Below, one piece after another: positions 12,001 through 60,970 of a stretch of 64,000 nucleotides of DNA. The position numbers and the translations under genes are program-made. The notes under the pieces were generated by a model. It saw only the letters and a program-made list of their open reading frames with translations. It made no database searches and was not told the origin of the DNA. Where the stretch lies: NCBI GenBank assembly GCA_947561395.2, contig OX387192.1, forward strand, positions 1,240,001 to 1,304,000, written 5' to 3'. This stretch comes from Buxus sempervirens. Taxonomy: Eukaryota > Streptophyta > Magnoliopsida > Buxales > Buxaceae. How positions within the stretch are numbered: position 1 is the stretch's first letter; each line of letters opens with the position of its first letter.

Positions 12001-15000
12001 CTTGATGTAATTCCCTCCTTAGTTAATGATGATAATAATGCTTCTTTCTTGAGGATTCCCTCTGATGAGGAAGTTAAGAAACCTGTTTTTAGCATTCCTA
12101 AAGATAGTGCCTGAGACCCTGAAGGATTCTCTACTGGTTCTTTCAAGACTACTTGGACATAGTCACTTTTGATGTTATTTGTTCTGTTGAAAGTTTTTCT
12201 CGGGTACCCCTCTACCTTTATCCTATAAAATCTGCTTTATTTCTATTATTCCTAAGACAGAAGAGCCCAAGTAATTCTCTAATTTTTGCCATGTTGGCTT
12301 ATGTAATGTTGTTAACAAGTTTAGTGCATAAGTTCTGGCTTATAGATGTTAGATATTAGTAGTGTTAATTGTTGATTATTGATGTAATTAGCTTAATTAG
12401 CTTGTGGGTATAAAACCCACTTACTATTCACCATTTGAAAATTAATATTTAATCTTTCACTATTCAACTTGGTATCGGAGCAAACAAAAAAAACAACCTC
12501 CGTCGCCACCGCCGCCGCACAGCACCACCGTCCCCGACTTCTGCTTCTTCTTCCTCGAGTGTGCACCCCCGTTCTTCTTCTTCCTCCTCGCGCGCGCACC
12601 CTTGTTTCTTCCTCTTCCTCCTCGCGTGCGTACGCAGTGTCCTTCTTCTCCTCTTCTCGCGCGTGCGCAGTGACCTTCTTCTCCTCTTCTCGCGCGCACG
12701 CGCAGCGACCTTCTTCTCCTTTTTTCTTCCACCTCTTCTCGCACGAGCGTAGTAGCACTCCCATCGTCGCTTCCTCTCTTCTCGCGCATCTCTACCTTGC
12801 GCAACTTCCTCTTTTTCCTGGTAGCCCTAGGTTTGGCTCTATGTTATTCTGAGTAAACCTAGGGCTCTTCCCTTCATGATGTCCTCTGTGACTTGTTGAT
12901 GCCCTAAGGGTTGTTTTCCTCTTCCCTGGTTATTCCTTTGATTCTCCATGGCAGAATCATCTAGTGCCCATTCGGATTTGGCACCTCCTCTAACTGGTGG
13001 AAGAGTTACCAATGTTCTGTTGAATGGACGTAATTTTGCAACTTGGTCTCGGTCCTTGAAATTGTTTATTGGTGGCCGAGGTAAGTCTGCTTGGCTTTTG
13101 GGAAAAGCTCCACGTCCAGCTGATGATGATCCTAAGGCAGATCAATGGGATATTGATAACTGCCTCATTCTGAGTTGGATCTATGGCTCTATGGAGCCAC
13201 ATATTTTCAATATGTTTATGTATCATGAGAATGTTGCTAGCCTTTGGACTACTTTGACTGCGAAATATGCTCATTCCCGGAATGAGGCTCGACACTTTGA
13301 GTTGTACCAGGAGGTTACTCGTGCCACTCAGGAGAGCCTTGGATTGACTGTCTCTCAGTTTTTTGGCTACCTATAGACTCGTTAGGATGAGATGGCTCAG
13401 TATGATCCCGTCAGTGACTTTGGGACGATGGCCACTGTGGCGGTTCAGAAGTTGGATCGTCTTCATACTTATGCTTTTCTTATGGGGCTTAAGCCCAAGT
13501 TTGAGAATCTTCGCACCCAGATTCTAAACTCTACTCCAGTTCCATCTTTGATGGATGCATTTGCGATGATCAATCAGGGGGAGCATCGGCGCCTTATTTC
13601 CACTCCTACTGCTATACCTACTACTGGCGAGGTTACAGATCAGATGGCCTTTACTAACTCAGCAGGTCCGTCTAATACTTGTCCTTCTGGAAAAAAGCGG
13701 TCGACCTGTCACTATCGTGGGAACCCTGGACACCTTAAGGAAACTTGCTGGAAACTTCACCCCGAGTTGAAGCTCCAATTCCAAAAGAAGAATGGCCTCC
13801 CTCCTAGAGCTGCTGCTATTGCCGAGACCACAGAGCCTCTTGCCCCTTCCCTCTTTGCTCAGGTGGCAGCACTTCAGGCCCAGATCGCCCAGCTGTCATT
13901 ACCAAGCTCCACCACTATTTTATCCTCAGGTATCCCCACTGCCTTCCACGTTCGCTCTGAGTCCCCCTCTTGGGTTCTTGATTCCGGTGCCAATGATCAT
14001 ATGACGGGTGAGTTATCCTTTTTTTCTTCCCCATTGACTCATACTCATAGATCTGTTCGTTTAGCTGATGGGTCCATTGCTACGATTAGTAGTGAAGGCA
14101 TGGTCAAACTTTCATCAAATATCACTCTTTCATCTGTTTTTCATGTCCCAAAATTTGCTTTTAATCTTTTATCTATTAGTCGTCTTGCAAAATCCCTTGA
14201 TTGTGCTGTTATCTTCTTACCTGATCATTGCTTCTTGCCGGACTGGACTTTGAAGAGGATTTTTGGCAAGGAGTATGAGCGTGATGGACTATACTACTTT
14301 GGCGATCCACCACCTTCTCAGCCTCCTGACTATGCTCTGCGTGCTGCTGCTGCTACTCCTGTGTTTGATTTTCCTTTTTCTGTTTCTGCCCATGACAATC
14401 CTTTGTGGCATGCTCGTTTGGGTCATATTAATTTTCAGTATCTTTGTTTAATGTTTCCTAGCCTGTCTGTTGCTTGCAAACAATCTCATTTTAAATTTCA
14501 TGTGTGTGAACTTTCAAAACATTGTCGAAAGCCTTATATTTCTCGTATGCATCGCTCTCCCACTATGTTTGATTTGATTCACTCTGATGTTTGGGGGCCC
14601 TCCCTCGTTACTGCGAGGTCCGGTCATCGGTATTATGTTATTTTTATTGATAACTTTTCTCGATGCACTTGGGTCTATTTGCTTAAGAAAAAATCTAATG
14701 TTTTTGCTACTCTGTGCCAGTTTCTCACTATGGTTAAAACTCAGTTTTCCACTGTTGTTCGGGGTATTCGGTCTGACAATGGGGGGGGGAATACATCACC
14801 AATGATCTTGTAGCTCACTTGTCCAACTTGGGCATTCTACAACAGCTCACCTGTCCTTATACCCCTGAACAAAATGGAGTTGCTGAACGCAAAAACTGCC
14901 ATCTTATAGACGTTACCCGATGTCTTCTTCGGGGAATGTCTATCCCAAAGTCGTTCTGGCATATAGCTGTGCTTACAGCCACTTACCTTATTAACAAGGT

Positions 15001-18000
15001 TCCTAACAAAGTTCTGGGAGGTTCTTCTCCACTTAGTGTTTCTTCTGCCCGATAAACCCTTGTTTCTCCTTCCTCTTCGAGTTTTTGGATGTGTCTGCTT
15101 TGTTCAAGATCGGCATCCTTCTCGAACAAAGCTTGACAATAAATCCATCCGTTGTGTCTTTATGGGTTATGCCTCCCAATCCAAAGGGTATAGATGTTTT
15201 GACCCTTCCTCTGGGCGTTTAATCACCTCCCTTGATGTCACTTTCTGGGAGTCTACTCCTTTTTTCTCTTCCCTTGATGTTCCGAGCAGCTCGCCTCCTT
15301 CTTGTGGCCCATCCATACCTTGTCCTCTTCCTGTTTTTGATCCGCCTACTAGTGTTCCTGCTGATACCCCTACTGATACTAGCACTGTTTCTCTGGACAC
15401 CTTACCTTCTGTTGCAGGTCCCCCCCTTCTTCAGTATAGCCATCGCCCTCGGCCCCCCTTATTGATCTCCTTTACGAATGAAGGTACTCTCTCTCCCTCC
15501 TCCTCTACCTCACCTCGACGAAACCCTCTCTAGGATCGTCGACCCCCTGATCGTCTTAACTTATTTTGTAGCACTAACCATCCCATTGAGCGGCATATGT
15601 CGTATAGTGCTTTATCTACATCTTTTCAGGGTTTTCTTGGGGCCGTTGACTCTATTTCCATTCAACGGTCAGTTAGGGAGGCTATTTCTAGTCCGGTTTG
15701 GCCGTCTGCTATGCAAGAGGAAATGAGGGCATTACAGGCTAATCACACGTGGGACTTGGTTCCTCTTCCTAAGGGGGAGAAACCAGTCGGTTGTCGATGG
15801 GTGTTTAGTGTCAAGCACCATGCTGATGGGACTGTTAGTCGTTTTAAAGCCCACCTTGTTGCTAAAGGCTTTACTTAGGTGCCTGGCAAGGACTTTACTG
15901 CTACCTTTGCTCCAGTCGCCAAACTTACCACTGTTCGGCTCTTGATTTCTCTTGCTGCCTCTCACTCCTGGCCCCTCCACCAGATGGATGTCAAAAATGC
16001 CTTTTTAAATGGGGATTTCGATGAAGTCATCTACATGGATCCTCCTCCGGGTTTTCGGTCTAAGGGGGAGTTTGCCGACATGGTTTGTTGTCTGAAGAAA
16101 TCGCTGTATAGGTTGAAGCAGTCCCCCCGAGCGTGGTTTGCTCAGTTCAGTGATGTGGTTCTCAACATGGATTTTTTGAGATGTCATAATGATCATAAAT
16201 GCTTTCTCTGGCGCAATCCTAAAGGAAGGTGTGTATTTTTATCTGTCTACGTTGATGATATCATCTTGACTGGAGATGATGATGTTGGGATTACTCAGGT
16301 CAAGAAGGACCTCAGTTCAGTTTTTGACATTAAGGATTTGGGTAATCTGAAGTATTTTCTGGGCATTGAAGTTGCTAGATCAAAAAGTGATATTTCCCTC
16401 TCTCAACGGAAGTACGTCTTAGATCTCTTGAGTGATATCAGGATGACAGGATGTAGACTGGCATATGCTCCTATGGATGTTAATATCAAGCTTTCAGCTG
16501 TGTCTGGTGATATTTTACCCGATCCTTGTATCTATCAGAGATTGGTTGGGAGGCTTATCTACTTGACCAATACCCGGCCTGATTTAGCCTTCGCTGTAAG
16601 CTTGGTGAGTCAGTTTATGCATGCACCACGGACTGCTCATATGGATGCAGTTTATCATATTTTGAGGTACCTTAAGTCTTGTCCAGGCCTTGGTCTTTTT
16701 TATGACTCCACCATTTCCTCCGATGTCTCATGTTTCTCTGATGTGGAATATGTTGGGTCTAAAACCGATAGGAGATCCACGTCTGGTATTTGTTCCTTTT
16801 ATGGGAACCATCTTATTTCCTGGAAAAGTAAGAAGCAATCTGTGGTTTCCTGGTCTTCTACAGAAGCTGAGTATAGAGCTATGGCCCAAGGCACTTGTGA
16901 GATTATGTGGCTTCACTCTATCCTTGGAGAGCTTGGCTTTCCTGTTCGGTTACCTTCACTTCTATACTGTGATAACAAGTCAGCAATATTGATCGCATCT
17001 GATTCTGTTCTACATGAGAGAACTAAACACATTGAGATAGATGTTCACTTTATTCGGGAGAAAGTTCAGTCTGGTGCTATAGTTCCTCATTTTGTGCCAT
17101 CCTCAAAGCAGACAGTAGATGTTCTTACCAAGCCTGTTGGACCTTCTCTTCTGAGATCTTCTCTTTGCAAGCTGGGCATGATCGATATCTATGCTTCAGC
17201 TTGAGGGGGAGTGTTAGATATTAGTAGTGTTAATTGTTGATTATTGATGTAATTAGCTTAATTAGCTTGTGGATATAAAACCCACTTACTGTTCACCATT
17301 TGAAAAGTAATTTTTAATATTTCACTATTCAACTATAGATTGGGCTTGGTTCTTTCTTAAGCTTATCTCGTACCAGCTGCATGCCATTGTTAAAGACAAG
17401 TTAATTACTGAGGATATTGGATTGGTTCAGAAATGCTCCACTACTTAGATAAGAAAGCTTTTGGAAGAAATGTGATGGCAAAGCTTGATGTGGCCAAAAC
17501 CTATGAATGTATTGAATGGAAAATTTGTGAAGAGGTTCTCAAAAGATTTTGCTTTTGCTCTTTTTTCATCATTCTCCTTTTTGACTGCATAAGAGATGGC
17601 ATTTTATCCATTATTTTAAATGGCTCTTACAAAGGTTTTTTAAGGCATCTTGAGGCCTCAAAGAAGAGTGTCATTTAGCACCTTTTCTTTTTATCCTTGG
17701 AGCTGAAGTTCTTAGCAAAGGATTATCTCCAGCTTACTGTCAAGGTTTGCCATTTTAGTGCCGCTTAGCATTTCGCCAAACCACTGAAACGAAATTTTGG
17801 CAGCATGCCTCTGAAATTTCACCAAAACAAGGAAAAAATAGGTTCTGGCGAAATTTAGCAAAAATTAGCTAGATGCCAGCGAAATGTAGCAACGTGCTAG
17901 TGAAAAGTTGGTGAAACGCAGTGAAACAATGCAAAAATTAGGTGATTTCAATTTAAAATACTCAAATTGTGTGAAATTCAGCCTAACTTAGACGAAATTT

Positions 18001-27869: not shown

Positions 27870-27944
27870 TGTAGACACCCCAAATTGCACAGTGAAAATG
27901 ATGAATAATTGGCCAAAATCATTCTTTCTTTTGTGGCCATCATA

Positions 27945-28040
27945 AAAAATCGGATACAAATAAATTTAATTGTATCCGATGGATTTCGTCGGATACAAAG
28001 GATATTACTTGTGTCCGACCTGAGTTGTCGGATACAAGTA
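27945..28040. repeat. palindrome array in LTR E1
   Basis: Short hairpins built on TGTATCCGA / TCGGATACA arms, repeated about three times, upstream of the LTR's TATA box. Confidence 0.75.
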
Positions 28041-28075: not shown

Positions 28076-28083
28076 CTTTTTAC
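28076..28083. repeat. left 8-bp target duplication of the hAT element
   Basis: CTTTTTAC, repeated exactly at 31194-31201. Confidence 0.85.
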
Positions 28084-28255
28084 TAGAGCCGGCAAAAAGC
28101 GAACCGACCCGACGGGTCAACCCGATTATAAACGGGTTGGGTTGACCCGTTTAGTAATTGGGTTGGGTACGGGTTGAGGTTTTCCCAACCCGTCTGAAAT
28201 CGGGTCAACCCGATTACAACCCGTCCACCCGACGGGTTACCCGATTAAAATGTTT
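28084..28255 (+). repeat. hAT left terminal and subterminal repeats
   Basis: The terminal sequence is followed by alternating CGGGTTG and CAACCCG motifs. They also form large inverted repeats with each other (for example GACGGGTCAACCCG). Confidence 0.75.
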
Positions 28256-28719
28256 ACAAAATTTTCGGAAATTTCAAATTACATTTACCTTTTAGCGGAG
28301 CGGAATTAGCCATTTAGGTTTAGGGTTTTCGACTTTTCGTTTTGTCTTCGCCAGAATCGCCACAGCCATTCGCCAGTTTTCCTCTCGCCGTCTCGCGGTA
28401 AGTCTCTCGACTCTCGCCCTCTTCTTCCTTAGTTCCTCTTCGGCTAATGCCGCTAATCGGCTCTTCCATACTCCATAGTTCCATTCAGGCTTTCAGCTCA
28501 GCTCCTCTCGTCTGTTTCAGATCCCTGGGAGATCAGATCGTCCTTTGGTTTTCTATACTCTTTTTGTGATTTTGTTGTCTTGGGCCTTTAGGTGGATTTG
28601 ATACTGCTCATGTTGCGGCCAGGTGACCATCGCTTGAATTAAGATCTTTGTTTCGTTTCGTTTTTTTTTTTTTCGCTTTTCCTCTCTAACATTGATTCTT
28701 TTTGGTTTTCTGATTCTAG

Positions 28720-30720
28720 ACCTTATGATCGAGCCGCCATCAAGTTCCGGGGAATTGATGCTGACATCAACTTTAACCTTAGCGATTATGAAGAGGATCT
28801 GAAACATATGGGATGGTTAGGTTTTGGAATGTTGCTGATCAATCAGATGAAATCTTAGTTGTGTTATTTATCTCATTTTTATTGTTCTGCAGATGAGGAA
28901 CTTTACCAAGGAAGAATTTGTGCATATACTCCGTCGTCAGAGCACTGGATTTTCAAGAGGGAGCTCGAAATACAGAGGGGTAACGATGTATAAATGTGGG
29001 CGATGGGAAGCTCGGATGGGGCAATTCCTTGGAAAGAAGTGAGGAACGCTAAAAACTAAAAATTGTTATTTCATCATTTTGTTTTCTCATAGATTTATAG
29101 AGCAAAATTACTTGTTTGACCTGATTAACCATCAAATGCTTAAATTCATTGTCTGTTTGGCAAGATTTCTGGTGTATGGTTTGAAAACCTCATTCAACCA
29201 TGTTCCTAGAACAACCAACAGGTTTTCTGTGAAAATAGCTAGAGCTGGAGCTCATAGACAATCTCTATGTTTGGGTTTGTCGTATGATGAGATAATAGAG
29301 GGGTTGAATCTTTGTAATCTCATTCAACCATGTTGGTCTTTTCTTTTGTGTGTTTTTTTCCTCATTCGTGTCTTTTTGTATAAAATAAAAATGCTTGGGA
29401 ACTCTGCTTTGATAATTGGGGGAACAATGGTTCCCTAATGCTTTTGATGCAGGCAGCGATTACAATCTTGATCTCAACTTGGGGATCTCTCCCCCTTCTT
29501 TGGCTGATGGTCCAAAAGGGGGTGACAATGTCGAGGGATTTCATATCCATTGCGGTCCTTATGATATGTCTGTTGAAAGGAGAACAAGAGTAATATTTGA
29601 ACTAAAGCTTTTCTAGCAAATCAACTAACACTTGAAAACATGTAGCAAGATCTATTAGTCTGTTTCTTCTGTTGTGCTCATACAGATGGATAACTCACCT
29701 TCAGTAACAGTGGGCGGTCAATGCCCCAATAGCCTGGCAATGAGACCCGAGCATCCTCCCATGTGGACTGGTGTATATCCTGGTTTCTTTCCCAACTTTG
29801 AGGTAATTTTCCTATCCTTTGTTCTGAATTTAATTTTGTTTTGAAAATAAATTGAGCTGCCAGTCTGCACTTTTTCGATTCTAGCTCATGAAGATTTAGA
29901 ATTGTAACGTATGGCATATGTTGCTGGATGTTGATGGTTGGACTCTCTACATTAATATATCAGAAAAGTAAATTTATGCTCTGTTTATTTTTATATTTGA
30001 GATTATAGTTGAGGTTAATTCCCTTCCAACTCACAGTTTATCTTGATTTTAATCTATTCCAGTTCAATCTTCAGTAAAAGCATTTCTCAACTTGCGATGT
30101 GATTCCTGAATTGATGTTCTTACCCATCAATCTCAGCATCCTAACTAGATTCAACTTCAACTATTGAATGTTTAGAAAATTTTTATTTCATTTCTTTCTT
30201 TGGATATTGTGGTTACTTAGGTCATGAAGTTTTAATCATGAGAAAAATGATGTTTGTTGAGTTTGACTGATGTTCATGGTTGCTGACTTTTTGCTTAGAA
30301 AGACAACAATTAGGTCGTCGCTTTTATAATTTTTAGCTGCATTAAAAAAAAAGTGATAGTATGATGGTTTATTTGTTTTATTTGATAAACAGACCATTAA
30401 AAGTTTGTACATGAGTAAATTTGAAGATTACAGGGGTTATATAATGGGATGAATGACTAGACTTAATAGCCGATTTCATTGTTAATAAATGTAAACATGG
30501 TTGTTATTATTCATGGAAGGAAAGAAAAAATTCTTTTTGTTGCTGACAGGAAAGAGCGATAGAGAAGAGGGTCGAAGGAGGTCCCTCAATGGGACTCTCA
30601 AACTAGACAATGCAAATGCATGGCCATGGTGGTGCTACCTCAGTGCCGCTGTTCTCTACTTCGCTTCAAGTTTGTTTTCTTTATATGAAGGCCACAGTAA
30701 GCTTCTTGGAGCCAAGTCTT
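28720..30720 (+). pseudogene. captured fragment of a euAP2 (APETALA2/TOE-like) transcription factor gene
   Basis: Five exon-like pieces with AG acceptors and mostly GT donors. 28720-~28806 gives [20 protein letters not shown], the end of AP2 repeat 1. 28893-29038 gives [20 protein letters not shown] plus [20 protein letters not shown], the linker and first half of repeat 2. 29453-29589 gives YNLDLNLGISPPS. 29686-29802 gives MWTGVYPGFFPNFE. 30550-~30720 gives ERAIEKRVEGGPSMG plus MQMHGHGGATSVPLFS. Exons coding the second half of repeat 2 (the YLGLFD part) are absent between 29038 and 29453. The donor after the first piece is lost, and TAG at 30604 replaces a Trp codon expected in a NWxWQMHGHGG context. 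Retained introns show capture at DNA level. It is unlikely to make a functional AP2 protein. Confidence 0.85.
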
Positions 30721-31054
30721 GAAAACGTGCTAAAGCTGATGCCATAGTTACCCTCTAAATTCTTTTCTCAGAAGGGAGGAAGAGAGGTTTCCACCTGTAT
30801 CAACAGCAACCAACAGCTTATTAAAACATAGGGAAACCTCAATAAGGACTGAGTATAACTGTTTGCTGAATTGATGTATTTGTATCTGTATGGGCCGATG
30901 GGCGTCAAATCCAATGGTTTTAGGCTTTTAGCAACGTGTATTGAGTCTATTGACGAATGGTGGCAAATCCGAAGATGTAAAACATGTAAAACAGTAGAAA
31001 TAAAAGTGCAAAACTGGTTTTTTGCAAAAATAAAAAATAAAAAATAAAAAAATA

Positions 31055-31193
31055 ATCGGGTTGGCGGGTTGGGTTCGGTTTGGGGTTTTCCCAACCCGCC
31101 AGTAATCGGGTTCAACCCGACCCAACCCGATTACTTCTCAACCCGATTATGACCCGCCCGAACCCGACCCAACCCGACCTGTTGCCAGCCCTA
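31055..31193 (-). repeat. hAT right terminal and subterminal repeats
   Basis: Dense GGGTTGGG/CCCAACCC motifs ending in CAGCCCTA, the inverted counterpart of the left end. Confidence 0.75.
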
Positions 31194-31318
31194 CTTTTTA
31201 CTGTCTTATCATTTGTTTAAGAAGTGGAAATCTTGAAAATAGCCTTAGGGTTAAGTGGGAGAATGCTAGACACTTCCTTGTGTCTACTATTAGGGTTTCC
31301 CCTAACCCTAGCCTTTGC

Positions 31319-34297: not shown

Positions 34298-36130
34298 TGT
34301 GAGACATGGGAAAAAAATCAAATCCTATGATTTCCTCAATCATCACACGGGATTAGATAAAACAAAGAGTCGCCACCATTCAATTTAGGTGTGAATGGAC
34401 ACCAAAATATTAAATAAGCACACAAGGCAATTTTAGAGCAAAAATAACCCTCCTTTAAAAACAACCAGAGATGGGTAAGGGGATTAGGTTATGAACAGGG
34501 GAAGGTGTTAGGCACCCCTATTCATCCACACAAGGTGGTTGCCAGGTATTGTTCATGTTTAAAATAAAGGAAAAAGCTTGCTATAAAAATCACACAAAAA
34601 TCACAAAAAAGGCAAAAATATATGGTTTTTTTCATATGAATAGTCTGATTGATCCAGAACTATCAAACATGATCATACCATTCCTAGGGTTTCATGATCA
34701 AAATAAAATTGAGATAAAATCAAATAAAATCAGTTTAAAGTGAAAAATCCAAAAATCTGGCTTCAAGTCAAAATTCTAGAAATCTAGAAAATATGATTTT
34801 TATAAAATATTTCAAAATTGAACTTGAATAGTCCAGGACATAGATAAAGCCCAAATTTCACATTAAATCAAGAAATAAAAACCAAAAATACCCACGTTGA
34901 TGAAGAACACCAAAAGAGAGAATTTAGACCGTAGGGTCTTATCTCAATAATGAAAAACAATTTAAAAACCACATCATGAAACCCTAGAAGTTATTTTCAG
35001 GCTTCTAGATTCAGATCTACCATATTGATCATGATATATCTAAGATCCTAGCCTAAAATCATAAAAATCACGAAAACAGTGCTGTAGGTGCAAAAGTGGC
35101 AAAAATCCAAATTTTATCAAAAAGTGGGGATCTCATGCTATAAACATCATGGATTCATGTTATTCATTCAGATATATCATAAAAAGCATTAAAACATGAT
35201 CAAGATATTTAAAACAGCCATATCTCACAAATTAGAGCACATGGGGGTCTACCCTACGGATCCACCTGTTTTCTTTTCCCCTAGTTCTCTCTTCACGTTT
35301 TACGGCTAGAGTGACTCTTGAGGTACTTGGAGATAGGTTTGGTTACACAAACACAATCAAAGGCTTTATTTTAAAAGAAAAAGAAAAAAACAGATATAGG
35401 GTTCTATTCTAGGGATCCACCTGTTCCCCTTTCCCCTAGTTCTCTCTTCACGTTTTACGGCTAGAGAGACCCTTGAGGTACTTAGAGACAAGTTTAGGAA
35501 GACAAATATAACAGATATGGCCTTATTCTACAGTAATAGAGATGATCCTATTACATCTAGAATTGAAGACAGAAAAATAAAAAGGGATAGGGGACTTACC
35601 TGGATTGAGCAGGCAGGCAGCAGGAGTTCTTTCTCTTCTCTTGGGAGCTTCTTAGAATTCCTTAGACTCAAAATTTCGTGGCCTTTAGCTAGAGGAGAGA
35701 GCCTCTATTTATAGACAAGCACAGGGGCAAGGCTGGTCCAGAAGGATATATCCTGATTCTCAGGATAGAGTGAAAATTGGAGATAATGCCCATCCATATC
35801 CAACCAAGGATAAATGAGATAATTCGAACAGATAAATAAGAGAATTCGATTATCCAAGAGAGATATTTGGGTGCAGATAAGGCTCAAAAATTAAAAAGGT
35901 AAAATTCGCACAAAGACCCCTGTGCCCGTAAATATATTACGGTCGCGCCCTGCCCGTATCATTAATACGGGCACGCCGTGACCGTATATCAACTGCAGGT
36001 ATGACCAGTCCGTAAACAAAATATGGTCATGACCAATTTGGCCAGATTTTACATTTTTTTGACCTGTTTCAAATCCCAATTAATATTTTCAATTATTTTC
36101 TCATTTTTAGTGCAATTTGGGGTGTCTACA
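34298..36130 (-). mobile_element. solo LTR E2, nested in E3
   Basis: On the minus strand it begins TGTAGACACCCCAAATTGCA and ends CCCATGTCTCACA. The perfect duplication ATGTT flanks it (34293-34297 and 36131-36135). Length 1833 bp. TATA box on the minus strand near 35708. The shared stretch with GTTAGGCACCCCTA is at about 34509. It interrupts one of E3's palindromes. Confidence 0.85.
35925..36030. repeat. palindrome array in LTR E2
   Basis: About four ~28-bp units with palindromes such as CCGTAAATATATTACGG and CCCGTATCATTAATACGGG. Confidence 0.7.
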
Positions 36131-43919: not shown

Positions 43920-44660
43920 CTTAAAAGTTTATAATATTATGATAAAATATTATATTTTTATTGATAAAATAATAAATAAGCAAATATATAAATATTATAT
44001 AATATAATATCAATTATATTATATAATAAATAATATGCATAATATAATATATAGTATATATTTTAACAATACGTAAGATTACATATATAATATACAAGAC
44101 CATATATTATTATATATAATATAATATAGATAATATATATAATATTAAAATGTTGTAATGTAATATTATATATAATATAATATTAGGTATATAACATTAT
44201 TATAATATAAGATATATTTTGTATTATATATAATACATGTTATGTATTGAAACATAAAAAAATATATATATAAATTTTAATATTAAATAATATATAACCT
44301 AATATATTATAAAATATTGTAAAATATATTGTATATTGTATAATATAAACTCTAGATATTTGATATCTTTCTTTTTGAATGAGATCTCAATTCCATCTAT
44401 GGTTTCATTAGATATCTTACAACAAGAGTCCCTCATTTTTCCAATCCACTTCCTCCACCACTGCAAATCTATATATTACCTATCATATAATATAAAATAT
44501 AATACACATAATGCATATTATAGTAAATTACAAGAAGATTATATAATATATAGTATAAAATACTATTATATTACATCATATTAATATAATATATCATCTA
44601 ACATATTATATATTATAAATACATTATATTATATTGTTCTAATATATAATATATTATTTT
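43920..44660. repeat. very AT-rich block (ATATAAT repeats)
   Basis: Low-complexity TATAATAT sequence. The part from about 44104 recurs at 47770-48130 as the left end of the second tandem unit. Confidence 0.7.
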
Positions 44661-46532
44661 TCTTATGCCATTATTAATATAAAAACAACAAGATCAATCT
44701 TGGAAATTGAGGTAAACCAAATGAGATTGTAGATTCTAGTTGCCTAATTGAATTATTAAATCCAAAGAATCCAAGTAGGTTTCTGGATTCTAAAAATCAA
44801 AATTGAAAAATCTGAATTTTCACAATCCAGATTTTAATATAATCCAAAATCCCTACCAAATGCCCCCTTTATATGTAGAAAGGGTAGGTTTATTGGCCCC
44901 GTAGAGCATAACCGGGCATTCTAGATTTGCACACATTAACACTTCAAAGGATATATTGATTTTGAATTTTGTTAGAAGAGTTAAAAATTAAAGGATACTC
45001 ATTATACAAAGTTACAAACTAGTAGGGTGCACATGCAGTATTGCACACAAGTACAAAGGAAAAGGATGTTAGACGAATGAAAAGTGAAGGAAGAGGTGAA
45101 AGGGAATAGTTGCAAAACTGTTACATTTTGAAGGACTAAGACATGGATGTATATTTAAACCCTATGATAATGGGCTTAATTAACAATGAAATCTAAGGGC
45201 ATGTTGGAAAAAAATGAACACTAATCTTGGCACGATCCCCAAGGGGTGCATCGCGTTATATATAGTATAGATTGCCAAATAGAAGATTGTGGGTGTAGGA
45301 TATCTTTCTTGGAATAAGCATTAGCACAAGCCAATTCCTTGTTGGACAATTGGTGTTACTTAGTCCTCCTAGGCACATGAAAACCCACAAAATCAATTTA
45401 TAACACAAGTGCATGAATTTGGCAAAATAAGCAAAAGCATGATTTACCAAAATCCAATAAAATTAAATGCTCACAAACCAATATTAATTGATCATCAAGT
45501 GCAATTAACTATAAATACGTCTTCAATTGGTATATGTATCATAAGAAAGAAAAATAAATATATCTATACTTTAATGCTCTTGCATGAAGCAACAATATGA
45601 ACATGATGACAATGATAAGCTATGAGAATGAACTTATTGCCCATAACCTTTGATATCTCACAAGCCTTATAAAAAAGTAACATAATGCAAGCATTGATAA
45701 GAGTGATCAGATATTGTATTCGAGCCATCTTATATACATAGTTACACCTCCATTGATCAACTTAAGCTTTTAAGTGCAACAGTTGTTTAACGTTCTCAAT
45801 CTGTCAATAATAAGCGTACTTGTGACAAAAGAAAGGTCATTTTCCATATCATTATCTTTTTATTCTTAAATTTGTTTACTACATGGTTCCGAAATAATCA
45901 TACAAATCTTTATCATATAATTGCTAATAAGGAATACACTCATTCTCTTTTGGACTAGCAATAGATAATAAAGGAAGAAGACTAAGTCACGTTGCGATTT
46001 TGTTGTAACGTCACATGGTTCAAATGTTGAGGCTAACAAATAAATGTATGTAGTTATCGTAAAACAAGCTTCGTGCCACTTGTGACAGCCCATAGTCTAC
46101 AGGCATCCTCTTTAAATAGATGGTTTCGTCTAGTGCGTTTCATGTTACCATCGCAATGTACTGATGAATGCCCGTTGAAATGGGGCCCACACCCCAAAGC
46201 ACACACAGTCGGTAGTATCATTTTATTATTGGCTTTTAGTACCATACTCTCCCTCCTTACCATATATATATAAAAAGAAAAGAAAATGTCCTTAATTGCC
46301 ATAAAACCGACAAACAAAGGAATATTTTCTGCCTTAGTAAGGTAAGCTTTTTGTCATTTAGCTGACAGAGATAGTTGTCTTTACCATCATGATTCCTACT
46401 TTCTTGTCACAAATGCTTGTCTACCTTTTGCATAAAAGGCAATAAAAGGATTTTGCTATGGTGCGGGAAATTTTTTTTGAAACTATACCGAAAACACTAT
46501 AGGCAAGTCAGGGTGTAGGTCCCTATTGAATA

Positions 46533-46539
46533 GGGGGGG

Positions 46540-46578
<39 letters not shown>
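46533..46578. repeat. long poly-G tract in the upstream region of B3-like gene 1
   Basis: Seven G, one C, then 38 G in a row. The duplicate at 50261 has only GGGGGGG at the matching place. Confidence 0.9.
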
Positions 46579-46580
<2 letters not shown>

Positions 46581-46702
46581 GTCATCCTCTGATTGGTCTA
46601 CTTTTTCGGTACCATACAGAGACTTGCAATAAAATTATACATAGCGACAAATTTGTTTCCCACTATAAACTCTACAGAAGAGAAAGGTATTTTACAAGGT
46701 AA

Positions 46703-47286
46703 TTGAATGAAGCTTTCAATTTATCTCTAGGAATGGATCAATGGCAACTTCTATTTGTGAAAGAATTGAAACAAGGAGATCTACATAGAGTGATGCGGTC
46801 TCATAACCTAGACCATACCCCATTTCTAGCAAGCTTTCCCAGTGAAGAATTGAAGACATTGTTTGATCAACATCTAAAGATTGAAGCTTGGTTAGAATCC
46901 GCTGGAGGACAAGAGAAGGGTTGTATGCAACTAAGTTATTATTGTCACCAACGGCCATTGAATGGGATTCCAAGGTTCTATTACAAAATCTATTGGCAAC
47001 AAATTGCACGATCAAACAATCTTAGGCCTGATATGGTTGTTATTGTATCCTATCGATGGCAAGGTGAAAACCTGCATTTGTTGATTGAAAAACAATTGGA
47101 AAGGCCAAGAGGAAGAGAACCTTTTGCTTTAAGAGGTACAAGGTTTTCTTCTTTCTTTCTTTTAATTTGATGATTTTTTTTCCTTTTTTTGGCGGTTCTA
47201 ACAGATTAACCATTCATGCATGCCCTTTAATGTTTAATTAACTTGTTGCAGCTGTAGATACAACCTTGCAGCTTGGACCTTCTTAA
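46703..47286 (+). CDS. B3-like (DUF313-like) protein, copy 1
   Basis: Two exons, 46703-47135 and 47252-47286, joined by a GT/AG intron with phase 1. The product has 155 residues ending ALRAVDTTLQLGPS. The part SEELKTLFDQHLKIEAW, CMQLSYYCHQRP, FYYKIYWQQIARSNNLRPDM and VVIVSYRWQGENLHLLIEK resembles plant B3-like DUF313 proteins (pattern YxLxxxWxxIVxxNxLxxGMxVxLWSFR). That match is from memory and moderate. An ATG at 46733 (MDQWQLL) is an alternative start. A TATAAA lies near 46664. If it is B3-like it would act in the nucleus; function is not known. Confidence 0.6.
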
Positions 47287-49618
47287 TCAAACAAGATGGG
47301 GTGGATCTGATCAGTTGAATGGCAGTTCTATTTATTATTGTGTCCTTTGATGTCAATGGTGGTTTTGATTATATGGATTGCAATTTTTTTTTCTTTTGAA
47401 AACTTAAAGGCATGAATCCAAATCTTAGCTATTATATTTTTGTTGCATTAGTTATTACAAAAGCATGAAATGATGAGATCTTTACCATTTATGTGAAACA
47501 TGAAGTCTCATGTTAAAGTTCATATGTGATCTTTCCCTAAATCATTCAAAGAAAAGAAATGCTTATTCTCTTTTTATTGTGTTGTCCATGGAATGCTTTA
47601 TTTGTCGATTAAGTTTTAATTAGGAAAGTCAGTATACTTGGGAATACATGGAGTAGGGCTGGAGATGAGAAGTCTAGGCATCTTTTGGCATTCATTTTGT
47701 AAATGAGTTCTAGGGCTTGGAACAAGTTGAAGTAACAAAACAAGTGTCTGGTTGCATTTTTCGAATATATATATTATTATATATAATACATGATACATAA
47801 TATATATATAATAAAAAAATATTATAATGTAATATTATGTATAATATAATATATGTTATAGTATTGAAACATAAAAAATACATATAATTCTAATATTAAA
47901 TAATATATAACCTAATATATTATAAAATATGATATATATTGTAAAATATATTGCATATTGTTCGTAATAATATTTTACCTATCATATAATATAAAATATG
48001 ATACACATAATATATATTATATTAAATAACATATAATATTATATAATACATAGGATAAAATACTATTTTATTTCATCATATTAATATAATATATCAGCTA
48101 ACATATTATATATTATAAATACATTATAATATATTATATTTTTCATATCCAATTATTAATATACAAACTACATGATCAATCTCAAAAAATCAAGCTCAAT
48201 GAAATGAGATTCTAGATTCTAGTTACCTAACTGAATTCTTAAATCCAAAGAATCCAAACAAGTTTCTAGATTCTGAAAATCGACATTGAAAATTGGATTT
48301 TCATAATCTAGATTTTAATTAAAATCCCCACCAAATGCCCCCTTTGTATATAAAAGGGCTAGGTTTATTGGCCCCGTAGAGCATAACTAGGCATTCTAGA
48401 TTTGTGCACTTTAACACTTTAGAGGCTATATTGATTTCAAATTTTGTTAGAAGGGTTCAAAATTAAAGGCTACTCATTGTACAAAATAGCAGGGTGGACA
48501 TGCAGTATTGCACGCATGTAGAAAGGAAAAGGATGTTAGACGAATGAAAAGTGAAGGAAGAGGTGAGAGGGAATTGTTGCAAAACTCTTATGTTTTGAAG
48601 GATTAAGGCATAGATTTCTATTTAAAACCTATAATAGTGAAATATAAGGGCACACAGGGAAAAACGAACATTGAACTGGCACGATTCCCAAGGGGTGCCT
48701 CGTGTTATATAGGATAGATTATCAAATAAGCGATGGTGGGTGTAGGATATCTTGCTTGGAATAAGCATTAGCACAAGCCATTTCCTTGTTGGACAACTGG
48801 TGTTACATAAGTCCTCCTACACACATGAAAACCCACAAAATCCAGTTATAACGCAAGTGCATGAATTTGGCAAAACAGACAAAATCATGATTTACCAAAA
48901 TCCAGTAAAACTACTTGCTCACAAACCAATATTAATTGATCATCAAGTGCAATTAACTATAAATACATCTTCAATTAGTATATGTATCATATGAAAGAAA
49001 AATAAATATATCTATAATTTAATGCTATTGCATGAAGCAAAATTAAGAACATGATGACAATGATAAGCTATGCGAATGAACTTTTGCACATAACCTTTAA
49101 TATCTCACAAGCCTTATTAAAAAGCAACATAATGCAAGCATTCATAAGAGTGAAACATGAGATCAATTGTTTTACATTTACATATATAGGTTCTTTGTTG
49201 AGATATTGTATTCGAGCCCTCTTATATACATAGTTATATCTTCATTTATCAACTTAAGCTTTTAAGTGAAACGGTTGTTTAATGTTCTTAATCTATAAAT
49301 AAGAAGCATACTAGTGATAAAAGAAAGGTCATTTTCCACATCATTATCTTTTTATTCTTACAATTCTACTACATGGTTCAAATGTCCGAAATAGTCATAC
49401 GAATCTTTATCATATAATTACTAATAAGGAATACACTCTTTCTCTTTTGGACTAGCAACAGATTATAAAGGAAAAAGGACAAAAATCATGTTGCGATTCT
49501 TTTTTAACGTCACATGGTTCAAATGTTGAGGCTAACAAGCACATGTATGCAGTTATCATACAACTAGCTTTGTGACACTTGTGACAGCCCATAATCTATA
49601 GACAACCTCTTTACATAG

Positions 49619-49840
49619 ATGGGAAGATATCGTTTGCTGCCGCTTACTGCTACTATTCATGCATCGACCATGACATGCTGCCATGTGTAGCATCTCATGG
49701 TTGGATTTTTTTTCATCAAAAAGTATCTTTTTACATTTTCATAAAGGAAAAAAGCTGCAAGCGTTAGATGTTACATGTTTCAACATCTGAATCAAGCAGT
49801 AGTGACAGCTGCAATCAATGGCGGCAGACGATTTCAAACC
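49619..49840. mobile_element. MITE unique to tandem unit 2
   Basis: 222-bp insert flanked by the 8-bp duplication TTACATAG (49611-49618, 49841-49848), with inverted ends around ATCGTTTGCTGCCGC and, from the right, AATCGTCTGCCGCC. Unit 1 has the empty site near 46115-46125. The 8-bp duplication fits hAT. Confidence 0.8.
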
Positions 49841-50390
49841 TTACATAGGTGGTTTCATCTAGTGCATTTCATGGTACCACAATGTATGGATGAAAGCCTG
49901 TGGCAATGGGGGCCAACACCCCAAGGCACACGCAGCCTGTAATATCATGGCATTATCAGCTTTTAGTACCATACTTTCCCTCCTTATCATATATATAAAA
50001 GGAAAAGAAAATGTCCTTAATTGCCATAAAACTGACACACAAAGGAATATTTTCTACCTTAATAAGGAAAGCTTTTTGTCATTTAGCTGACACAGATAGT
50101 TGTCTTTACCATCATGTTTCCTACTTTTCTGTCACATATGCTTATCCTTGTTTTGCATAAAAGGCAATAAAAGGATTTTGCTACGATGCAGGAAATTTTT
50201 TTTCGACACTGTACTGAAAACACTATAGGCAAGTGAGGGTGTGGGACCCTTATTGAATAGGGGGGGTTGTCGTCCTCTGATTGGTCTACTTTTCCGGTAC
50301 CATACATAGACTCGCAAATAAATTACACATAGCAACAAATTTGTTTCCCACTATAAACTCTATAGAAGAGAAAGCTATTTTACAAGGTAA

Positions 50391-50981
50391 TTGAAAGAAG
50401 CTTTCAATTTAGCTCTAGGAATGGATCAATGGCAACTTCTCTTTGTGAAAAAATTGAAACAAGGAGATCTACGTAGAACGATGCGGTCCAAAAAGCTAGA
50501 CCATACCCCATTTCTAGCAAGCTTTCCCAGTGAAGAATTGAAGATATTGTTTGATCAACATCTGAAGATTGAAGCTTGGTTAGAATCCGCTGGAGGACAA
50601 GAGAAGGGTTGTATGCAGCTAAGTTATTATTGTCACCAACGGCCATTGAATGGGATTCCAAGGTTCTATTACAAAATCTATTGGCAGCAAATTGCACGAT
50701 CAAACAATCTTAGGCCCGACATGGTTGTTATTGTATCCTATCGATGGCAAGGTGAAAACCTGCATTTGTTGATTGAAAAACAACTGGAAAGGCCAAGAGG
50801 AAGAGACCCTTTTGCTTTAAGAGGTACAAGGTTTTCTTCTTTCTTTCTTTCTTTCTTTTAATTTTATAATTTTCTTTCCTTTTTTGGTGGCTCTAACAGA
50901 TTAACCATTCATGCATGCCCTTTAATGTTGAATTAACTAGTTGGAGCTGTGGATACAACCTTGCGGCTTGGGCCTTCTTAA
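50391..50981 (+). CDS. B3-like (DUF313-like) protein, copy 2
   Basis: Same two-exon structure as copy 1: 50391-50823 and 50947-50981, 155 residues ending AVDTTLRLGPS. Differences are few and mostly conservative (for example VMRSHNLDH becomes TMRSKKLDH), and no stop or frameshift is seen, which suggests recent duplication or selection. The splice acceptor reads TTGGAG rather than TTGCAG as in copy 1. The upstream block with AACTATAAACTCTA-like TATA sequence is shared. Confidence 0.6.
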
Positions 50982-51455
50982 TCAAAGAAGATGGGGTGGA
51001 TCTAATCAATTGAATGGCACTTCTCTTTATTGTTGTGTCCTTTTATGTCAATGGTGGTTTTGATTATATGGACTGCATTTTTTTTTCTTTTGAAAACTTA
51101 AAGGCATGAATCCAAATCTTAGATATTATATTTTGTTGCATTAGTTATTACAAAAGCATGAAATGATGAGATCTTTACCATTTATGCGAAATATGTAGTC
51201 TCTTCTTAATGTTCATATATGATCTTTTCCTAAATCATTCCTAGGAAAGAAACGCTTATTCTCTTTTTTTTGTGTTGTCCATGGAATGCTTTATTTGTTG
51301 ATGAAGTTTTAATTAGGAAAGTCAGTATACTTGGGAATACATGGAGTACGGCTGCAGATGAGAAGGCTAGGCATCTTTTGGCATTCATTTTGTAAATGAG
51401 TTCTAGGGCTTGGAACAAGTTTAAGTAACAAAACAAGTGTTTGGTTGCATTTTTG

Positions 51456-52380
51456 GAATGATTTTTCCCCAAATAAGTTTTAAAAAATACGTTGTAAACA
51501 TGAATCACCCCTATACATGTTTTTGGATTTTTAAAACTCATTTTACGTAAGTGTGGTGTCATACTTGTAATATTTATAACCTTTGAAAGAATGAACAACA
51601 GGTTTAGAAAACTGTTCAAATTGTTCAAACCCATTCCTAGAACTCATTCCTAGATATAGAATGAATGCCACACGCCTTGTGAATGTCTTAATTTAGAAAA
51701 AAAAAAAAAAAAAAAAGGTGTACGGTTGAGCATTCCTTGTTGTATCGTTGGGCTAAAAAAAGTTGCTTCTAATAGAGAAGACATACGTGGAGTGACATTG
51801 TACCATCAAGATGTGAATGAGAAGTATGTTACTCTTTATGTGCATAAGATCTCTCAAAACTTGCTAAAACATCTTTTTGGAATGGATAAAAGACCTTTAT
51901 TTTGGAAGAAATTGTGCACCACTTATTATCATATAACAAGTTATTATATACATTTGATTTAATAATTGTTATACGATTAAAACATCTTCAGGACTTGATG
52001 ATAGTACTATTGACAAGGCGCCCAAGAGAATATATATTAACTGCCAATGAATAGTATGTTATAATAGAAAAAAAATTTAAAAGTTCCATAAATTGTTGTC
52101 ATAAAAAGGGATGTAGTCTTTTGATTAAAAAATTTGCTTGAGTGTAACTGAAGTTATTTCCAGAACGAGTGGGCTAATTAATAACTTTAAGTAAAAATAA
52201 AACAACTATGCCTATTAAGGCATAGCAAACAACTGAAGAGGTTTGACTAATCTGAAATAGCATAAAAATTGTGGGATTTTGTGATGAAAATTCTTTACCA
52301 TTTTTTTCAAACTAAATATAGAATGCCTTCGGGTATAGCTAAAGAGCTGTGCGTTCCTTTTTGGGGACTTAAGAAAACTT
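51456..52380. other. non-coding stretch, no gene seen
   Basis: AT-rich sequence with an A20 run at 51697-51716. No supported gene or element. Confidence 0.5.
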
Positions 52381-57542: not shown

Positions 57543-57690
57543 TTTTTGTATTCGACAAATAATGCCGGATACAAGTAGCCCTTAATGTATCCGGCAACAT
57601 ATGCCGGATACACATAGGCTCTAGTGTGTCCGGCATCATATGCCGGATACATTAAGGCACTTGTGTATCCGGCCTGACATGCCGGATACG
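57543..57690. repeat. palindrome array in LTR E5
   Basis: Four hairpins. The best has exactly complementary arms TGTATCCGGCA and TGCCGGATACA around a 5-base loop; spacers are of the TAGGCTCTAG type. Confidence 0.8.
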
Positions 57691-57856
57691 CTAGTTTTGC
57701 TCAAAATTAGGGTTTTTCGAGAGTTTTCACATTTTACCATCATGTCCTTCATTAAATGAAGGGAAATCTCAGAAATAGCCTTAAGGTTAAGGTTGGTGGG
57801 CTATAAACATTATGTTGTGTCTACCATTCTCACAAACCCTAACCCTAGCCTTTGCC

Positions 57857-57864
57857 TATAAATA
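57857..57864 (+). promoter_or_regulatory. TATA box of LTR E5
   Basis: TATAAATA within TTTGCCTATAAATAGGAGGC, about 165 bp after the palindrome array. Confidence 0.7.
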
Positions 57865-60129
57865 GGAGGCTCCTCCTCAAGCAAATGGCCATTAACTCTC
57901 TTGCCAATAATTCTTGCCAAGAATCTTTGCCAAGAAGAGCTCCGAGTGAAGAGGGAAACCACTGCGGAATTGCTTCCAGAACTCAGGTAAGCCTTAAACT
58001 TATCTTTTATTTTCTATTTTACATTTCTAGATCTAGATCTCTTCTTCTACCTTTCTGTAGAATAAAGCCTTGTCGTGTGTATGAAAACCCTTCCTCGGCT
58101 CAAAGTATCTTAAGACTCCCCCTAGCCGTAAAACGTGAAGGCGGGATCTAGGAGAAACAAGACTGGGGATTGACCCTAGTATTAGAACCTATTTAGAATA
58201 AAGCCTTTTGAATCTTTGAAGCCCGTTTCATATTCAAAGTACCCCAAGATTATCTTGAAGAACCGTGCTTAACGGGGAGAGAGAACTAAGGGAAACAATA
58301 ATGGAACGGAACCCTAGGTTGCTTTTAGAACCCTATTTTAAATGAATGAGAATGCATGCTATGTTGTTATATTGTTCTTGAATGATTTTCACTTACACAT
58401 ACATTGCACCCGTTTTGGCGGATAGGCTCATATTTTGGCTTTATTACATTTATTGTGATAAATCTGAAATAAATGGCCTCAATCAATTCTGGAATGTTTT
58501 TAAAAGGTTTTTAAAAGATTTGGATTCATCTTGCACGAATCACACACACCTTATCACAGTTTTGAGTTGGTTTTGTTCAAAAAAGGCTTAACTTGACAGC
58601 AACTGTACCCCTACTTTGGACACTCATAACTTCATCGTCCGGATGAATTTTGGAGTGACTCTAGAACCATGAGAAATGTGAGGCTATCTAGTTTATGCCT
58701 ACAAAATTTCATTAATTTCTATCGAACAGATGTTTGACACCTCTCTGTCGAAGTTGATTGGTCAGTTCAGGTTTAAATACGGAACTTGTCACTTCGACTG
58801 AGCGCCATGTGTTCGTTTTAAATCCGATTCGAGTGATTTTTGTTTTTGGGCACTCCTCTATGAGTCTATTTTCAAATCCAATTGGTTTCATAATTGTTTG
58901 ACTCCATTTGTGTCGTGAGCAACAGATTTACTCGGAACTGCTCATCAGTACTTTTTTGGGTAAATCTGTGATCTTCGGGGCCTGTTCGGGAGACCACCCA
59001 AGGCACATCCAAATGAATTTTTGTATGAGGCTAGTTCCATCTGAAATTTGGCCATACAGACTTCAATCACACCAAATTTCGTGGATTTTTATGAAGTGGA
59101 TTTTTCTAGGGGATTTTCCAAACTTGCATGCTTATCACTTTTGATTTTCCCCAGCAGCAACTTTAAAGGAGCATAACTCCTAGGATTTCAACCGGATTTA
59201 CTTGAAATTTTGCATGAGTCTCCTATTTACCATAATCTTTCAAGTGGATTTGGTTTGATTCAATTTAAAATTGGATTTGAATGATTTCAAGACTAATGGC
59301 ATTACTTGTCACCGAATTTTCCGGATTTGATTTAACTTGGCTTTATGCACTCTTTTGCTTGGATTTTTATCCTTTTGTGACATTTCAGAAATGATATTGA
59401 CATAAAAGAGGATCTAAAATCCATTTGGATCTTCATGTGAAGATATCATACATTTGCCCTTTTTCAAGGTTTTTAATGATTTTTAGCAAGCTTTCTTATC
59501 TTTTTTGCATGAACAAACACTTGGCAACCACCTAGTGTGAGTGAATGGGGGTACCTAACACCTTCCCTCGTTCATAATCTAATCCCTTTACCCATCTCTG
59601 GATTTGATTTTCAAGTAGAGTTATTTTTACTCTAGAATTTGTCTTTTGGCTATTTTTGCTTACTTTTGAACCTTTTGGTGTTCATTCACACCCCAAAATT
59701 CTGAATAGTGGCGACTCTCCCACTTTTTACATCGAGCCCCGTGTGTTGACGGAGGGTGAATCATCCCGGTGATTTTTCCCGTGTCTCACAATTGGCTCAA
59801 ACCTTACGAACACAACACAAACGAGACGACCACAACACAGCTACACATAATAAACAGATTTGAAAGTGAAGAGTCTCCAAGTAAAAAAAACTTACAAATA
59901 ATATGACGACTTGAGGAGCACTGAGCAGCGAGAAGGCAAGAAGAATGCAACAAAGATCTGAAATAAACAGATTGCTTGCTCTCTTAATGTCTCATAATGT
60001 CACTGATAGGGTTTGAGGATATATTGTCATCCACTTCAATTCAACAGTTGCATGAATCTTTTCACAACTAACCAATCATATCTCCTACGACTTTGATTTG
60101 GAAAGAAAAAAGGAAGGAAACAAATCCCA

Positions 60130-60320: not shown

Positions 60321-60743
60321 AGAGTAAAGACGATTCTGGTTCTATCAAAAAGGCAAAAACAGGTTGTGGCTATGGCGATTCTGGTTCTACCAAAAAATAA
60401 AAAGGCTGTGGCGATTCTGGTTCTACCAAAAAAGAAAAAGCCTGTGGCGAATGGCGATTCTGGTGAAGAGACGAAGAGTCGAAGACAAAAAGACGAAAAC
60501 CCTAAACCTCAATGCCGCTCCGCTGAAGGCTAAATATGATTTGAAAGTTTCGAAAATTTCACAAACGTTTTAGTCGGGTAACCCGTCGGGTGCACAGGTT
60601 GTAATCGGGTTGACCCGATTTCAGACGGGTTGAGAAAACCTTAACGCGTACCCAACCCAATTATTAAACGGGTCAACCCAACCCGTTTATAATCGGGTTG
60701 GTCGGGTTAACCCGTCGGGTCGGTTCGTGTTTTTCCGGCTCTA
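60290..60743 (-). mobile_element. second copy of the Pack-hAT family, truncated or divergent
   Basis: On the minus strand it begins TAGAGCCGGAAAAACACGAA, matching the left end of the element at 28084. It continues collinearly through the CGGGTTG-rich subterminal region and the leader with GCGGAGCGGCATT and repeated CCAGAATCGCCACAGCC. No opposite end was found to the left, and no target duplication. Confidence 0.7.
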
Positions 60744-60970
60744 AGCACTGGTGGTAGGGACTTTAACTTTTTACTTTTTCATTTGTTATCATTATCAAAA
60801 TAATAATTTGTTAACATTTATATGAAATATCTCAATGCAAAAGTTAGAATATATCACAATAAATTATATCAAAAGTAGCACTGGTGGTAGGGTTTTTTAC
60901 TTTTTACTTTTTCACTTTTTATCATTTATCAAAATAATAATTTGTTAACATTTATATGAAATATCTCATT
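60744..60970. repeat. tandem duplication flanking the second hAT copy
   Basis: 60744-60876 and 60877-about 60970 share AGCACTGGTGGTAGGG and AATAATTTGTTAACATTTAT. Confidence 0.8.

Follow-up and report, generated by a model that had tools for sequence, protein, structure and literature searches.

A hAT-type element of Buxus sempervirens carrying an intron-containing AP2 gene fragment that apparently replaced most of an earlier transporter-gene cargo

In a 64-kb stretch of Buxus sempervirens DNA (the window, C15:1240001-1304000), we found a hAT-type element of 3110 bp (28084-31193) that holds DNA of two host genes. Our preferred reading, to which we assign a probability of roughly 0.88, is a non-autonomous Pack-hAT that arose by serial capture and was then amplified, its cargo being decaying passenger DNA. 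In this history, an ancestor element would first have acquired a portion of a C1 gene for a TPT-family transporter, and a break within the element, most likely followed by error-prone repair, would then have led to AP2 capture, with a ~2.1-kb stretch of a floral-regulator-type AP2 gene on C3 copied as DNA and joined by 2-3 bp of microhomology. The AP2 DNA would have entered the middle of the element and displaced most of the TPT cargo, leaving 194 bp, and a transposase acting in trans would have carried the chimera to its present places on C15, C4 and C11. There is no settled account of gene uptake by cut-and-paste transposons, and here one genome holds the donor, three descendants, an AP2-less sister and an empty site, so that both captures and their joins are readable per base. 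The genome searched comprised 676.5 Mb in 247 contigs and gave 109 AP2-domain matches. Subtracting 28083 from a window position gives the element coordinate (e); the features are as follows.

28076-28083, no strand: target-site duplication, left copy, 8 bp, CTTTTTAC
28084-28095, plus: left terminal inverted repeat TAGAGCCGGCAA, from end comparison
28084-28545, plus: element's own 5' part, e1-462 (~462 bp), with CGGGTTG repeats and a putative 5'-UTR-like intron; common to the AP2-less L048, L049 and L050
28118-28223, no strand: left subterminal CGGGTTG/CAACCCG cluster, 6 copies by motif count
28546-30660, plus: first cargo along the element, AP2 gene fragment, e463-2577, from intron 2 into exon 10, introns kept; donor C3:55934416-55937031, minus strand
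28592-28622, plus: AP2 exon 3 equivalent (this and the other exons from comparison with the donor exons)
28720-28807, plus: AP2 exon 4 equivalent, splice donor GT changed to AT in the window and C4 copies
28893-29038, plus: AP2 exon 5 equivalent
29431-29432, plus: deletion point, ~400 bp with donor exons 6 and 7 gone, 2-bp overlap TT, same in all three copies
29453-29589, plus: AP2 exon 8 equivalent
29686-29802, plus: AP2 exon 9 equivalent
30550-30658, plus: AP2 exon 10, first part, ending where the donor's miR172-like site starts, with a stop at donor W454
30659-30852, plus: second cargo, e2576-2769, 194 bp of the 3'-UTR of a TPT-family transporter gene (C1:69071352-69071545, 96.4%)
30852-31193, plus: element's own 3' part, e2769-3110 (~341 bp), parts common to L047, L049, L051, L052 and L053
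31057-31176, no strand: right subterminal CGGGTTG/CAACCCG cluster, 7 copies by motif count
31182-31193, minus: right terminal inverted repeat TAGGGCTGGCAA (reverse complement), from end comparison
31194-31201, no strand: target-site duplication, right copy, 8 bp, CTTTTTAC, perfect match to the left copy
57659-58065, plus: related repeat without the element (empty site), from alignment to the element's joined flanks
60452-60743, minus: truncated second member of the hAT family, 82% to 28084-28362, from sequence comparison

The borders of the element were established from its ends and from the empty site. The initial annotation had reported a perfect 8-bp duplication, hAT-like ends and subterminal repeats rich in CGGGTTG, and all three were confirmed. 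The duplication is the one listed on either side of the element, and its length is that of hAT target sites. Elements of this superfamily have short terminal inverted repeats whose second base is A and whose fifth is G, and the ends found here read TAGAG and TAGGG. When the flanks were joined with one copy of the duplication and compared with 57659-58065, the alignment was gap-free across the insertion point, indicating that the borders are correct and that the element sits inside another repeat; over the full comparison, 298 of 409 columns were identical (73%), and the 36 gap columns lay further along. CGGGTTG occurred 18 times in the window against 2.3 expected, a count reached in none of 100 shuffles, with 13 copies in the two ends of the element, four in the family member at 60.6 kb and one elsewhere. 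Host gene DNA lies between the ends, and the native ~462 and ~341 bp leave no space in which the element could encode its own transposase, which makes this a Pack-hAT. TGTAGACACCCC occurs four times in the window, at 27870 and 56969 on the plus strand and at 36119 and 43509 on the minus strand, and two of these occurrences begin the repeat copies aligned in the empty-site comparison. Tandem arrays with a 39-bp unit were seen at 27950, 34198 and 37283, the hAT element being inserted in the first.

Next, the origin of the inside was traced. It had been described as five AP2 exons with their introns in place; the introns are indeed retained, and six exon pieces rather than five were recognised, corresponding to donor exons 3, 4, 5, 8, 9 and part of 10. 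The AP2 assignment was also right for this fragment, though not for the whole inside, since 194 bp belong to a second gene and the first 462 bp are native transposon sequence. The proposed search for a parent gene led to a locus on C3 which, when read with GT/AG splice sites, consists of ten exons whose frame stays open for 522 codons, and no element ends were present in the 10 kb examined around it. Blastn aligned the cargo, introns included, to this locus in three pieces, with identities of 93.5, 95.9 and 95.9%. The donor lies on another contig, has the exons seen in the cargo and is highly similar in its introns, as capture at the DNA level had been expected to leave. A genome search with the AP2 part alone gave nine candidates, all nine of which were scored, and the remaining AP2 places matched far less (72-75% over 83-469 bp, or 91% over 65 bp), so the C3 locus was taken as the donor. 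Four other loci (L009-L012), which held five of the six AP2 matches below the cut-off, were considered as donors and discarded because they did not match the element. The 5' part was likewise considered as a further captured gene and rejected, being common to family members: blastn found e1-465 in L048, L049 and L050, all without AP2. This part holds an intron-like GT/AG pair (GT at 28398, AG at 28519-28520), which may represent a 5'-UTR-like intron.

The donor protein contains two AP2-domain stretches (Pfam), and CTGCAGCATCATCAGGATTCT in donor exon 10 agrees at 19 of 21 bases with what we take to be the miR172 complement; by these two features the gene is of euAP2 type. The cargo runs two bases into this site and stops. 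In the element, the best match to the miR172 complement on either strand was only 13/21, and on the plus strand of the window outside the element it was 14/21, which we took as background. The microRNA probably controls the original AP2 gene at a site that the cargo omits, and the element offers a clean example of partial duplication of a floral-regulator-type gene that leaves the microRNA site behind; the position of the cargo end, a single event, may be due to chance. No complete AP2 domain was recognised in the joined cargo pieces: they gave no Pfam AP2 match even up to E 10, and they matched WRI1 (7wq5) in a phmmer search against PDB sequences (E 2.8e-24). An Rfam search of the window at gathering scores found nothing.

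The AP2 part stands between element ends at three places, in the window on C15, on C4 at 30.52 Mb and on C11 at 19.45 Mb. All four internal joins are common to the three copies, and flanks and duplications differ, which indicates one capture followed by amplification. These data bear on the view that the AP2 exons are a decayed native gene with hAT ends nearby by chance. Nothing beyond the presence of AP2 exons speaks for that view; it conflicts with the intact donor elsewhere, the exact target-site duplications and the empty site, it is refuted by three copies with both cargo borders the same, and it can practically be dismissed. The initial annotation's preference for captured cargo is borne out by the same intact donor and shared borders.

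The second cargo provided information about the order of events. The 194-bp piece starts ~30 bp past the stop codon of the C1 gene, whose C-terminus gave a Pfam TPT match with E 1.8e-19 (from two exons, their join assumed). A sister element (L047, C4:18074589-18077846, duplication matching at 7/8) holds ~1.3 kb of the same C1 gene in three pieces and no AP2, and its right-hand cargo junction is identical to that of the AP2-bearing element. With this longer TPT cargo, the identical junction and the lack of AP2, the simplest history is that TPT was apparently captured first and that AP2 later replaced most of it, an order that we infer from one sister element. The joins overlap by TGG (native/AP2), CT (AP2/TPT) and TT (internal deletion), and by 1 bp at TPT/native. 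The probability that three joins would all have overlaps of at least 2 bp was ~0.005 under a simple model, a figure that leaves the TPT/native join outside, and the 2-3 bp overlaps are no more than suggestive of repair.

A different route, tandem insertion with re-mobilisation, would have two elements, one on either side of the AP2 stretch, outer ends that moved together, and inner ends that were later lost. Tandem insertion has been proposed for Pack-CACTA, extended to other superfamilies and put forward as general for Pack-TYPE elements, according to the accessible part of PMC8903248, and a short family member (L055) does lie on C3, ~140 kb from the donor. However, no inner ends were seen at either cargo border, both borders join straight to inner native or older-cargo sequence with 2-3 bp overlaps, no family end occurs in the 10 kb around the donor, and L055 is a ~0.4-kb copy without either cargo. 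We therefore regard this route as unlikely; in this case the joins speak for repair-type copying rather than for tandem insertion. L055 was also rejected as a possible progenitor, being merely a short copy without AP2 or TPT cargo.

Under serial capture and amplification, the copies can be placed in a tree of the form donor,(C11,(C4,window)), favoured by 23 cargo sites, with one site for each of the other two groupings. Window and C4 cargoes differ at 24 of 2107 sites (1.14%), the window differs from the donor at 75 of 2104 sites, and the three copies differ from the donor by 3.05-3.56%. Using a substitution rate of 6.5e-9 per site and year, these values give ages of ~0.9 (window/C4) and ~2.5 million years (copies/donor), which are rough only. 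To the donor branch, which also contains the element stem, we assigned changes at 3 of 628 exon sites and 31 of 1474 intron sites, compared with 25 of 628 and 47 of 1474 within element copies (Fisher p 0.0045; one exon and three intron sites fitting no single branch, plus gap columns, were excluded). This contrast suggested constraint on the exons in the donor gene and none in the element. Both the window copy and the C4 copy have the stop at donor W454 and lack the exon 4 splice donor, and the C11 copy has lost the exon 8 acceptor. With cargo exons changing at about the rate of introns, and with these stops and splice losses, there is no sign of protein-level constraint on the cargo. The C11 copy also contains a nested insertion of 2.6 kb (L045 1182-3807), which is bounded by the inverted ends GGATCGCA and TGCGATCC and is probably a DNA transposon in its own right.

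Two functional readings were weighed against these data. In the first, the native 5' region would drive a sense transcript for a new short AP2 protein; the 5'-UTR-like start with its intron-like GT/AG pair, sense to AP2, agrees with such a chimeric gene, but the exon 5 to exon 8 join shifts phase (2 to 1), the stop and the splice losses just described interrupt it, and most changed codons are non-synonymous (11/14 in C11, 12/16 in C4, 11/15 in the window), which makes it highly improbable. In the second, raised in part by the initial annotation, AP2-antisense transcripts from the element would give rise to small RNAs that dampen the donor, the cargo itself escaping miR172. Of the 1556 21-mers in the donor coding sequence, 286 have an exact match in the window copy, so in principle the donor could be silenced in trans; the cargo lacks a miR172-like site, and the available text of PMC8903248 discusses, for Pack-TYPE elements, how transposon small RNAs come into conflict with genes that resemble them. 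Set against this, the cargo lies in sense orientation to the element's 5' end, its exons are without constraint, and the element, being inside another repeat, may be silent. Such regulation would be quite unlikely. It is very doubtful that the family acts as a rolling recorder of copied genes, its cargo overwritten time and again with fresh host DNA by gap repair, and that AP2-matching small RNAs or decoy transcripts from the present cargo, which ends exactly at the miR172 site, would escape miR172 and alter donor output. The evidence favours passenger DNA.

A whole-genome search with the element gave 2375 first-look candidates, of which 40 were scored, so that family counts are lower bounds. 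The suggested search for other elements with these ends was productive, as a 30-bp left-end pattern (starting with TAGAGCCGGCAA, with C or T at position 7) had 49 exact genome matches and its reversed control none. Both ends could be placed at six of ten viewed places (L048, L051, L053 and L054 fall outside the tally), and the duplication was perfect at three of these (window, C4 and L049), matched at 7/8 in L047 and likewise in L050, and in the C11 copy reached 8 bp only when the terminal TA of the element was included. L049 (5185-8261) is a family member of ~3.1 kb whose inside may hold other cargo. The truncated member at 60452-60743 adjoins a 92-bp direct repeat (60744-60834 and 60877-60968, 93%).

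Pack-MULEs, too, capture DNA directly and form chimeras of more than one gene, but they belong to the Mutator superfamily, with a longer target-site duplication and longer inverted repeats than the 8 bp and short repeats seen here. Gene fragments with introns are known in maize Ds hAT elements (PMC3260210, accessible part), where Ds2 and Ds-l4 resemble the present case in their hAT ends, intron-bearing fragments, donor on another chromosome and replacement of the inside by filler DNA; unlike what that part describes for them, the order of two captures is legible here from a sister element, and the loaded element exists in three copies. Grapevine Hatvine-6 (PMC2528002, accessible part) is similarly a hAT group whose variable inside contains exons and introns of genes, yet its members share transposase coding sequence, whereas the AP2-bearing copies consist of native ends and two cargoes, to which the C11 copy adds its nested insertion. 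Pack-TYPE elements including maize Pack-hAT have terminal inverted repeats, an 8-bp duplication for hAT and host gene DNA inside, as here (PMC8903248, accessible part); the borders of the present element resemble repair joins more than remnants of tandem insertion. In the main text of a 2026 review of plant capture (PMC13317346), as far as available, hAT is absent. Among the titles and abstract beginnings surveyed, with most subscription papers outside, we found no hAT-captured AP2 gene and no cargo overwriting another in a hAT element. Gene transduplication by hAT elements, and this type of capture, are already known; the notable part is the serial overwriting, and the readability of its history is unusual.

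Elsewhere in the window, a tandem duplication (44471-47766 and 47970-51459, 83-89%) contains a pair of open frames, 155 and 156 codons long, and the first of them had no Pfam match. Copia-type polyprotein pieces (Pol_BBD, gag_pre-integrs and RVT_2) lie at 13392-17204, accompanied by 123-bp repeats of 96% identity at 12347 and 17212.
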